From: a virus
IMG/VR virus record: IMGVR_UViG_3300043568_000917
Coordinates: 1 to 34,717 of that record
Reading direction: 5' to 3' (one strand)
Length of the DNA stretch: 34,717 nt
Shown piece by piece: positions 313 through 5,421 of the stretch. The translations under genes and the position numbers were made by a program. Position 1 is the first letter of the stretch. Each line of letters opens with the position of its first letter. Below the pieces are notes generated by a model. The model was given only the letters and a program-made list of their open reading frames with translations. It had not been told where the DNA came from and searched no databases.

Positions 313-364
313 TAATAACTTTTTGTTAACGAAATTAAAACTATCGTTAACGGGGGTGTTAGGC
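313..364 (-). repeat. compact attC-like hairpin (site 0)
   Basis: Minus strand: GCCTAAC (364-358), 6-nt spacer ACCCCC, arm GTTAACGA (351-344), 11-nt loop, arm TCGTTAAC (332-325), AAAAA, then GTTATTA (319-313). It resembles the three longer hairpins at 0.7-1.8 kb in having RYYYAAC and GTTRNNN-type boxes and an asymmetric spacer (6 versus 5 nt). The stem is only 8 bp and lacks the long arms, so it may be degenerate. The TAA inside GCCTAAC is the stop codon of the gene at 359-733. Confidence 0.4.
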
Positions 365-733
365 GTTATTTTTTGACAACAACACCAAGTTAGAAATCGT
401 ATCTACAAAAACTTCAAGACATTCTTGACTTTTGAACTTTACAGTTTCGCCCCAAGAATCAGAATAATATCCAACTTCTGGAGTGCTTATTACAGCATCT
501 AAATTACTCATCCAATTACAAAAACCTATCTCCAATCCATTGAAATTACATCCAATAAAGTTCAAATAATAGTCTGTATGAAAGTTTACTGACCATCCAA
601 TTTCTTGCAATTTTAATGCATCTTCTTTTGTTACTTTAATCGCACCGTTAGGGTATTCGTCTGACTTGAAAAAAGTAAAACAACGCCTAACATCGGTTTT
701 GTGCAAGTGGGGGTTATCTGCTATATTCATCAT
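359..733 (-). CDS. cassette 1 hypothetical protein (124 aa)
   Basis: The protein begins MMNIADNPHLHKTDVRRC and ends SKNNA. The stop TAA lies inside the GCCTAAC boundary box. The first 14 residues are encoded in the hairpin of the upstream cassette; block-specific coding begins at Val15-Arg16 (GTT AGG). It is a soluble mixed alpha/beta-looking protein with many aromatic residues (GYYSDSWGETVKF). No family is recognised. If the block can move, the start codon would be supplied by whichever site it joins, so the N-terminus is uncertain. Confidence 0.7.
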   Translation of the reverse strand: MMNIADNPHLHKTDVRRCFTFFKSDEYPNGAIKVTKEDALKLQEIGWSVNFHTDYYLNFIGCNFNGLEIGFCNWMSNLDAVISTPEVGYYSDSWGETVKFKSQECLEVFVDTISNLVLLSKNNA

Positions 734-817
734 TTGTTTTTTTTAATTAAGTTTAGTGGTGGGTTGAAACTTTCGTGCTTTAATGCCCCACCTGCACAAA
801 GCCGAGAAACGTTATGC
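685..817 (-). repeat. attC-like hairpin (site 1)
   Basis: Arms cggttttgtgcaagtgggg (694-712) and ccccacctgcacaaagccg (786-804) match at 17 of 19 positions. They are flanked by GCCTAAC (685-691) and GTTATGC (811-817). Spacers between box and stem are 2 nt on one side and 6 nt on the other, an asymmetry also seen in attC sites. The 73-nt loop holds the ATG of the downstream gene. The site shares CTAACATCGG and CAAAGCCG with site 3. Confidence 0.75.
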
Positions 818-1000
818 CGCATTTAACTGCGACTTACAGAAATCGTAGAATGATAATTCACTTCCACTTTCTTTCCATTTTACCCACTCTTTTTCTAACC
901 TAACATAGAACATAGATGGTACATCCATTTTACTATTTGGGTTAATGTCGTAATACAATTTATTACCACATTCAACTACTTCACTTGTATTTACTTGCAT
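812..1000 (-). CDS. cassette 2 second hypothetical protein (62 aa)
   Basis: ATG at 1000, four nt after the stop of the preceding ORF. It begins MQVNTSEVVECGNKLYYDIN and ends LNAA; the TAA stop is within the GCATAAC box at 817-811, as commonly seen for integron cassette genes. It is acidic with Trp-rich central residues (EKEWVKWKESGSELSF). No family is recognised. It lies in the same block as the ORF at 1005-1220. Confidence 0.65.
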   Translation of the reverse strand: MQVNTSEVVECGNKLYYDINPNSKMDVPSMFYVRLEKEWVKWKESGSELSFYDFCKSQLNAA

Positions 1001-1004
1001 ATTT

Positions 1005-1220
1005 CTATTTTTTATAATATTTGTCCATTAAATTTGTTGGCATTCCGAATGTTTCCATAACATCGTCAATAAATTGCTCACCATGTTTTTCACTTAACCT
1101 ATTTACCATATCTTTTTTTAAGAGTAGGTAAAATGGACGTAATAAAAAACGTGGCATAACAACAGATATACCCAATTTGGGTTTCTGTGGTTCATTCAAA
1201 ATTTCTGCTTCTTTATTCAT
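1005..1220 (-). CDS. cassette 2 first hypothetical protein (71 aa, or 50 aa)
   Basis: The long form starts at 1220 inside the upstream hairpin, and its first 20 or so residues (MNKEAEILNEPQKPKLGISV) are encoded by hairpin sequence. A second ATG at 1157 lies inside the GTTATGC boundary box and would give a 50-residue protein starting MPRFLLRPFYLLLKKDMVNR, fully contained in the block; this is at least as likely. The remainder is basic and ends DKYYKK. Its N-terminal hydrophobic stretch could be a weak membrane anchor. No family is recognised. Confidence 0.6.
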   Translation of the reverse strand: MNKEAEILNEPQKPKLGISVVMPRFLLRPFYLLLKKDMVNRLSEKHGEQFIDDVMETFGMPTNLMDKYYKK

Positions 1221-1284
1221 TTTATTTTAATTTTAAAGTTTCTACTCTTTAATCCCAAACTGGGTATATCTGCAAACGTTAGCA
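1154..1284 (-). repeat. attC-like hairpin (site 2)
   Basis: Arms cagatatacccaatttggg (1163-1181) and cccaaactgggtatatctg (1254-1272) match at 18 of 19 positions, between GCATAAC (1154-1160) and GTTAGCA (1278-1284). Box-to-stem spacers are 2 nt and 5 nt. The arm sequence differs from sites 1 and 3 while geometry is the same, which is the usual attC behaviour: structure conserved, sequence not. Confidence 0.75.
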
Positions 1285-1290
1285 GTAACC

Positions 1291-1656
1291 TTACTGACAC
1301 TCTAACTCATAGCCAGTTAAAGTGAAATATAAATTCTGTAATTGGTGTACATATTGTAAATGGACATGTATGTCAATATCCATCATTACAAATAGTTTAT
1401 TAATAATTAGATTATAATAATGATAGCATTCCGTTTCTTCATTGTATTTAAACTGAAATTTATCTAACCAATCAAAATCTAGTTCTATTGGTTCAATAGC
1501 ATTTGCAGAATAGCAACCAATTGACTTTTCGCCAACTAATAAACGAAGTGTATTATCACTATGTAGTGAACAAATCGGTAATGCTGTTCCTTGAAATTCG
1601 TCTAATCCATAAACGAAATTTCCTATTCTTAAATCTTGTACTTTTAAATTTGACAT
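1291..1656 (-). CDS. cassette 3 hypothetical protein (121 aa)
   Basis: Starts MSNLKVQDLRIGNFVYGLDE and ends TLTGYELECQ. It lies wholly inside block 3; start codon 47 nt after the GTTAGCAG box, stop directly before the closing box. The opening 'LRIGNFVYG' followed by short beta-like segments resembles small proteins I recall from Bacteroidota phages and chromosomes (LRxGNxV start), but I cannot name a family. Acidic and rich in aromatic residues. The plus-strand frame covering this region is a shadow. Confidence 0.75.
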   Translation of the reverse strand: MSNLKVQDLRIGNFVYGLDEFQGTALPICSLHSDNTLRLLVGEKSIGCYSANAIEPIELDFDWLDKFQFKYNEETECYHYYNLIINKLFVMMDIDIHVHLQYVHQLQNLYFTLTGYELECQ

Positions 1657-1696
1657 TTTTTTATTTTTATTTTGTACGACTGACCAAAAAGGCTAC

Positions 1697-1828
1697 TGCT
1701 AACATCGGCTTTGCAATAGTTGGGCAGTCGTGGTTAATTGAACATTTTTACTTCTATTTAGCTTTGTGCAAGGGTTTGACATTTCGTTTCCAAATTCCCA
1801 ACCATCGCAAAGCCGTGAACCGTTATTT
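1697..1828 (-). repeat. attC-like hairpin (site 3)
   Basis: Arms cggctttgcaatagttggg (1706-1724) and cccaaccatcgcaaagccg (1797-1815) match at 17 of 19 positions, between TGCTAAC (1697-1703) and GTTATTT (1822-1828). Spacers are 2 and 6 nt. The loop holds a further partial arm copy, gctttgtgcaaggg at 1761-1774, suggesting a past rearrangement. The TAA of the AAATAAC box is the stop codon of the gene at 1823-2173. Confidence 0.75.
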
Positions 1829-4815: not shown

Positions 4816-5421
4816 TTATTTCGCTTTTTCATTAATAAATTTATTTAATTCATCTCTTTGTACTTCGCTTAACTCAAAGGTTTCTTCTAACTTCTCAATT
4901 GAATACGTGCCCTTTTTAATGCTATCTAAAGCTCCGTTAAATCTTGCTTTGTCAAGTGTTGGCTTTTTCGGTGCTGGTGCTTCGTAACCCTCAGGCAAAT
5001 CTTCCCCAGCGTAGATATAAATTCCCAAACCAAACATTGCTAAATTCTTAGTTAAACAGCGCATTATAGTCTTGTTTATATCGAACATAGTGTACGCTTC
5101 GCAAGTTTTTTCTCCAAACTTAGTTGTGTAAGTGTACGGTGTGGTTTTCATTGCCTTATTTGCTCCATCCATTACAGGTAACCACATTTCGTGCATAATA
5201 TTTCCAACAGTTACGCGAGTGTAAACCATTGCTCCGCTTTCATCTGCGAAATAAGGTAACCCTCTAGTATCTTTAACAATGTAGTAAGTAGCTTCAGGAC
5301 ATACCTTTTGAAATTCAGACCAAGCCCAAGCCCAGCTAAGATAAGTTAAACCGCTCTTTTTTTCGGTTTTTTCGTTCACATTAATACTTGATAACGTTTC
5401 GAAGATTGTTTTGTTTTCCAT
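4816..5421 (-). CDS. single-strand annealing protein, Rad52-like (DUF1071/Sak type), 201 aa
   Basis: The motif GLTYLSWAWAWSEFQKVCPEA (residues 24-44) is the hallmark of the DUF1071/Sak-like annealing proteins (YLSWAWAW). It is followed by VGNIMHEMWLPVMDGANKAM and the conserved DINKTIMRCLTKNLAMFGLG segment near 125-145. The protein would coat single strands and anneal homologous DNA in phage recombination. It is first in its unit, 29 nt from the repeated promoter at 5.45 kb, and is followed by the exonuclease and SSB-like genes. Confidence 0.85.
   Translation of the reverse strand: MENKTIFETLSSINVNEKTEKKSGLTYLSWAWAWSEFQKVCPEATYYIVKDTRGLPYFADESGAMVYTRVTVGNIMHEMWLPVMDGANKAMKTTPYTYTTKFGEKTCEAYTMFDINKTIMRCLTKNLAMFGLGIYIYAGEDLPEGYEAPAPKKPTLDKARFNGALDSIKKGTYSIEKLEETFELSEVQRDELNKFINEKAK

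Follow-up and report, generated by a model that had tools for sequence, protein, structure and literature searches.

The DNA analyzed here (the window) is a stretch of 34,717 nucleotides from a virus. At positions 358-1821 (1,464 nt) it contains an array of three units, and each of these was observed to consist of an attC-like hairpin and a gene (Table 1). All three attC-like sites have a single orientation, on the minus strand, and separate small genes, as is required of a CALIN. The outer box of the J1 site, AAATAAC, is supplied by the flanking 116-aa phage gene.

Table 1. Features of the cassette array and its borders in the window.
Feature	Positions	Strand	Remarks
Flanking phage gene, 59 aa	116-295	-	After the attI-like site
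attI-like simple site	345-361	+	CGTTAACGGGGGTG^TTA; cassettes join phage here; crossover G358^T359
Cassette A, attI-proximal, 453 nt	359-811		124-aa gene and attC J3; G^TT to G^TT; boxes GTTAGGCG/CGCCTAAC
124-aa cassette gene	359-733	-	No known family; start codon inside J3
attC-like J3	689-813	-	R1 109.4 bits, E 2.6e-23
Cassette B, 467 nt	812-1278		62-aa and 71-aa ORFs and attC J2; boxes GTTATGCC/GGCATAAC
62-aa cassette ORF	812-1000	-
71-aa cassette ORF	1005-1220	-	Start codon inside J2
attC-like J2	1158-1280	-	R1 80.9 bits, E 1.8e-16
Cassette C, 544 nt	1279-1822		121-aa gene and attC J1; boxes GTTAGCAGTA/TACTGCTAAC
121-aa cassette gene	1291-1656	-	phrog_10066 (function unknown)
attC-like J1	1701-1824	-	R1 97.5 bits, E 1.8e-20
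Flanking phage gene, 116 aa	1823-2173	-	Kept in relatives with and without array

A first-pass annotation, made from the sequence alone, had described an integron-like array at this locus. Its coordinates were exact on checking, and the box pairs that it reported within blocks are real (GTTAGCAGTAG/TTACTGCTAAC, GTTATGCCACG/TGCGGCATAAC, and GTTAGGCGTTG/TAACGCCTAAC). The hairpin linkers also exist; instead of 19-bp arms with spacers of 2 nt on one side and 5-6 nt on the other, we measured arms of 19-20 nt with about two mismatches and spacers of 4-6 nt following AAC and of 1-2 nt preceding GTT. The proposed block layout had to be revised. The moving unit is a hairpin together with the gene after it, read in gene direction, such that, seen from the attI-like end, gene orientation is reversed and each hairpin lies upstream of its gene. 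A second correction concerns the boxes: the R boxes do not follow GTTRRRY (matched by only 3 of 58 host sites and 1 of 25 phage sites). The R' boxes are instead GTTR in 55 of the 58 host sites and 24 of the 25 phage sites, and the GTTRRRY criterion for attC is therefore not met.

The window sites scored 22.4, 22.4, and 23.1 with a stem finder. In 200 dinucleotide shuffles there were 0.03 sites per shuffle at a score of at least 13, with a maximum of 14.7, and the stem finder detected no further site reaching a score of 15 on either strand of the 34.7-kb window. A covariance model (R1) was trained on 20 host and phage sites with the window sites excluded. R1 matched the window at exactly three places and with 80.9-109.4 bits; it had no match in the phages L016 and L017, which have an empty site (below), or in the part of plasmid R100 that was retrieved. 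Of the pairs of consecutive boxes, 12 of 17 from phages and 28 of 37 from hosts agreed at 6 or more of 7 variable positions; the corresponding figures for unmatched box pairs were 9% (phage) and 6% (host). A TIGR02249 search found no integron integrase in the 34.7-kb window record, which may be a fragment. A tRNA search of the window returned nothing, and Rfam gave no match above the gathering score, the weak ones being far below it.

Searches of the cassette proteins against Pfam, NCBIfam, and PHROGs indicated no function, the sole match being that of the 121-aa gene to phrog_10066, and none of the window cassette genes was found in 296 Bacteroidota genomes. Any role for these small proteins is inferred. 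The 124-aa gene has a 90% identical homologue within the array of L002, and the unit there (4921-5395) has a different hairpin from the unit in the window (359-813). Hairpin and gene are therefore separable, perhaps via homologous recombination. When the surroundings of 68 viral relatives of the 121-aa gene were scanned with R1, sites were found in L215 only, so in most cases this is an ordinary phage gene. The start codon of the next ORF lies within the attC loop at window positions 1158-1280 and 689-813, and likewise in L002 (4921-5045), L004 (523-645), L005 (3018-3141), and L006 (4013-4134). The recombination site therefore gives an N terminus (e.g. MMNIADNPHLHKT) to different genes. An N terminus from the attC loop was also seen in a 280-aa Muminvirus methyltransferase.

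Relatives of the window were fetched from IMG/VR via both flanking phage genes. The first-pass annotation had proposed that related phages be searched for the same flanks around different numbers of blocks, and this is what was observed: the same flanks surround 0, 2, 3, or 4 blocks, with the junction at a single nucleotide. The site is bare in L016 and L017, where the flanking genes are joined directly, with GAAATAAC running into ACCCATGTTAACG (that is, GAAATAAC into ACCC; in its longer form the junction is that of GAAGAAGAAATAAC with ACCCATGTTAACG). The nucleotide at which the array ends is identical in the window, L001, L011, L018, L019, and L009, and the right edge is AAC followed by ACCC in every case. 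L001 has 1,981 nt between the flanks, including an additional cassette whose ORFs encode 69 and 52 aa. Because this added unit is a hairpin plus a gene, the attI-like site can be placed at 345-361, with the genes read toward it. There are two hairpins in L019 (969 nt between the flanks), two in L018, and three in L011; the 1,755 nt of L009 hold degenerate hairpins and a methyltransferase-like ORF, judged by eye without a family search. Several phages of the window's kind carry DNA methyltransferases in such cassettes.

Cultured Flavobacterium phages of the genera Muminvirus and Lillamyvirus have about 9 to 12 such sites each. Over about 7.5 kb, phage mumin6-2 and phages mumin6-3/6-4 (host LMO6) have 8 mismatches, and what sets them apart is exactly one 506-bp unit, which provides a further instance of the predicted gain and loss of blocks. 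The unit is bounded by breakpoints directly after AGCGGTTAAC and GTTGCATAAC, and it carries a homologue (36.5%) of the 121-aa cassette gene of the window. This difference is the cleanest evidence for the exact coming and going of single cassettes. With the empty sites, the range of 0-4 cassettes, and the mumin6-2/6-3 pair, insertion and excision exactly at G^TT satisfy the mobility expected of a CALIN. From the variation between 0, 2, 3, and 4 units at one nucleotide and the one-unit mumin difference, we conclude that the units are mobile cassettes that lack their own integrase (CALIN-like). The core reading of the first-pass annotation, an attC-type array that lacks an integrase and gains and loses blocks, is thereby supported by the relatives, by the mumin pair, and by the absence of an integrase from the record.

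Selection for single-strand folding is a hallmark of attC sites. In host stems, G-T pairs numbered 86 on the bottom strand and 33 on the top strand (34:0 per site, with G-T and A-C mismatches scored alike); in phage stems the numbers were 37 and 12 (14:1 per site, by the same symmetric scoring). The attC criterion of an imperfect hairpin whose bottom strand folds better is met by these ratios. The observed bias fits selection for folding of one strand, a reading that rests on sequence comparison.

The 19-nt arm of J3, CGGCTTTGTGCAGGTGGGG, also occurs in a chromosomal array of Ferruginibacter. A scan of genome contigs with the J3-arm pattern gave 17 matches, most of them by chance; the two in Bacteroidota (Ferruginibacter and Terrimonas) led to host arrays. 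The Ferruginibacter contig contains nine hairpins of 185-190 nt with a like asymmetry, and its array ends beside a 393-aa tyrosine recombinase. Homologues of this recombinase were found in 54 of 149 genomes of the Ferruginibacter family. Sites lay downstream of it with consistent polarity in 15 of 22 neighborhoods, and in 6 of the 7 site-less neighborhoods the contig stops within about 1.6 kb. No sites accompanied four other tyrosine recombinases of those genomes. The array starts at G^TT beside a conserved AT-rich element, and CGTA or CATA stands 13 nt upstream. In L052, L084, L085, L093, and L097 it begins 0.12-0.57 kb past the recombinase with matching boxes, which fulfills the expectation of an attI next to the integrase. 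Two Chryseobacterium plasmids share a common flank before G^TT (93/100) and then have different cassettes.

The recombinase resembles IntI in its core, which is 30% identical to IntI1; it lacks the IntI insert (the patch) and has an extra N-terminal domain of ~110 aa. The insert was absent from all 14 patch-less members aligned with IntI1 (alignment A1), so the criterion for a canonical integrase is not met. TIGR02249 gave a two-piece match below the cut-off. A Foldseek search with the predicted structure returned the Vibrio integron integrase 2a3v as best match. In a phylogenetic tree, the 18 Chitinophagaceae members make up one clade (98/97), which neighbors IntI (100/100) and is separate from the Xer proteins; the position of two divergent members (Chryseobacterium and Persicobacter) is unsure.

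Association of the sites with recombinases was examined in 296 Bacteroidota genomes with cut-offs of E 1e-7 for R1 and E 1e-80 for the patch-less recombinase. R1 sites were present in 133 genomes; 77 genomes had the patch-less recombinase and 84 had canonical IntI. R1 sites occurred in 63 of the 77 genomes with the patch-less recombinase and in 70 of the 219 without it (p=2e-14, uncorrected for genome relatedness). Divided by enzyme, 45 of 54 genomes with only the patch-less recombinase, 11 of 61 with only canonical IntI, and 59 of 158 with neither had R1 sites, and across the 296 genomes there was no positive association of R1 sites with canonical IntI. Among the same-contig matches listed within 80 kb, 40 of 43 were downstream with the expected polarity. 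Twenty canonical IntI neighborhoods yielded one weak R1 match in 311 kb. Canonical IntI above the cut-off is common in Bacteroidota, yet it has no R1-type sites nearby.

The 393-aa form of the recombinase was not found in phages. The viral contigs L112, L116, L117, L118, and L121 encode relatives of ~266-271 aa that are 35-38% identical. In each of them the R1-type array stops tens of nucleotides short of the start of the recombinase, and the closing box matches the last hairpin. L117 and L118 encode head maturation proteases and are therefore phages. L114 has weaker sites, detected by the stem finder only. A similar picture is presented, by weaker criteria, by the cultured Polaribacter phage Leef_1 (L272); R1 had no match in the cultured phages Leef_1 and Ingeline_1, and the sites of Leef_1 are weaker ones found by the stem finder. 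Phages that combine an array, an attI-like site, and a short recombinase possibly carry complete integrons, and their enzymes may act as integron integrases, prophage integrases, or both. In Cellulophaga phage Ingeline_1 (L273, at 6.9 kb) the sequence before the integrase gene, TTGCTAAC followed by ACCCACATAACTCC, resembles the attI-like edge of the window, AAC followed by ACCCCCGTTAACG, and also that of L011, AAC followed by ACCCACGTTAACG. The phi13:2 protein gp038 was considered as an integrase and rejected; it is XerD-like and unrelated to the patch-less family.

We consider it very probable that the window array consists of integron cassettes that were inserted serially at a fixed attI-like point and moved in trans; no recombination was observed directly. 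Three cassettes would have joined one by one at the attI-like G358^TT of a Bacteroidota phage. The coding (minus) strand of the attC-like site of each cassette is predicted to fold into a hairpin, and an integron-type tyrosine recombinase supplied in trans would use the G^TT within the AAC/GTT boxes to excise and insert cassettes. The enzyme would most likely come from a Bacteroidota-type host integron, or from a co-infecting phage with its own short relative, and the cassettes may in this way exchange genes between phages and host integrons. The kinship of the window sites to those of recombinase-linked Bacteroidota arrays is observed; the identity of the acting enzyme and its action on a single strand are inferred, as is the assignment of the window cassettes to the patch-less recombinase rather than to canonical IntI. 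Points against this scheme are that the phage attI-like sequence resembles host attI only in the 13-nt spacing and the first letters, that the 296 Bacteroidota genomes yielded none of the window cassette genes, and that the 124-aa gene is paired with another hairpin in L002.

The same locus might be read as ordinary phage accessory genes that are split by terminator hairpins and exchanged via homologous recombination. Phages are mosaic, the hairpins could end transcripts, and the 124-aa gene does stand behind a different hairpin in L002. However, a terminator consensus scan detected one terminator-like site in 3 kb, not above shuffles, and the many independent events at one breakpoint nucleotide, together with the empty site and the exact one-unit difference, argue against this reading, as do the box matches within units and the presence of the same hairpins in bacterial recombinase-linked arrays. 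We find it scarcely credible.

Movement of the cassettes by a canonical, patch-bearing IntI of the host, the patch-less recombinase being incidental, also has to be weighed, since IntI exceeds the cut-off in 84 of the 296 Bacteroidota genomes and IntI1 recombines an attC site of Polaribacter phage P12002L, P12002L_attC2 (PMC9892861). R1 sites are nevertheless rare in genomes with canonical IntI only and usual in those with the patch-less recombinase only, and canonical IntI neighborhoods lack R1-type sites. The genome overlap and these neighborhoods disfavor canonical Bacteroidota IntI as the partner, and we judge its involvement unlikely. As for the short phage recombinases, they could be ordinary prophage integrases, with the adjoining array end serving as attP and the cassettes a by-product; the L118 and Leef_1 recombinases do fall in integrase families or are annotated as integrase. 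Box-matched arrays whose ends lie within tens of nucleotides of where the recombinase begins, in five viral contigs (L112, L116, L117, L118, and L121), count against this, which leaves it a minor possibility, and it does not touch the window, where there is no such gene.

The first-pass annotation knew of no described case in flavobacterial phages. One has been published: Qi et al. (2023) reported 17 phage CALINs, that of P12002L among them, and showed that 5 of 6 phage attC sites tested, including P12002L_attC2, recombine with attI1 via IntI1 in E. coli (PMC9892861). P12002L carries the site type of the window, and a CALIN in a flavobacterial phage is therefore not new. P12002L, a virulent flavobacterial phage, resembles the window in having an attC array without an integrase, minus-strand genes, and a spacer asymmetry of 4-6 and 1-4 nt. 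What differs from that report is the gain and loss at a defined empty site, the type of the parent integron, and the departure of the sites from GTTRRRY.

With canonical integrons (IntI1 and Vibrio IntI4, PDB 2a3v) the Bacteroidota system shares the combination of integrase, attI, and attC array, an IntI-like core, the G^TT crossover, and the bottom-strand stem bias. It differs in that the associated recombinase has no patch and has the additional N-terminal domain of ~110 aa, that the boxes are GTTR and not GTTRRRY, and that transcription of the recombinase runs toward the array. The patch-less recombinase scores near the Xer/XerA model (NCBIfam NF040815), but it forms its own clade next to IntI, apart from Bacteroidota Xer, and is linked to cassette arrays.

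The parent integron system appears to be unrecognized within the open-access literature, and the IntegronFinder 2.0 survey found almost no complete integrons in Bacteroidetes (PMC9024848). It seems likely to us that integrons with a patch-less recombinase are a largely unrecognized class that is widespread in Bacteroidota and complete in some phages, forming one phage-host cassette pool that consists partly of counter-defense genes such as DNA methyltransferases. Should the system work as we read it, a large platform for gene exchange in Bacteroidota has escaped notice on account of an integrase without the signature insert and of sites without GTTRRRY, and the view of the IntI insert as essential to integron function would be challenged. 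With the cultured Flavobacterium phages that are one cassette apart, the exchange of cassettes between phage and host can be tested directly.

Host sites fall into two length classes, about 121-131 and 185-194 nt, which are mixed in single arrays (L052 and L084-L103). The array that follows the recombinase on the Chryseobacterium plasmid NZ_CP041688 (L126) contains Crp/Fnr, RidA, metallophosphoesterase, and GLPGLI genes, and also an IS110 transposase and a group II intron.
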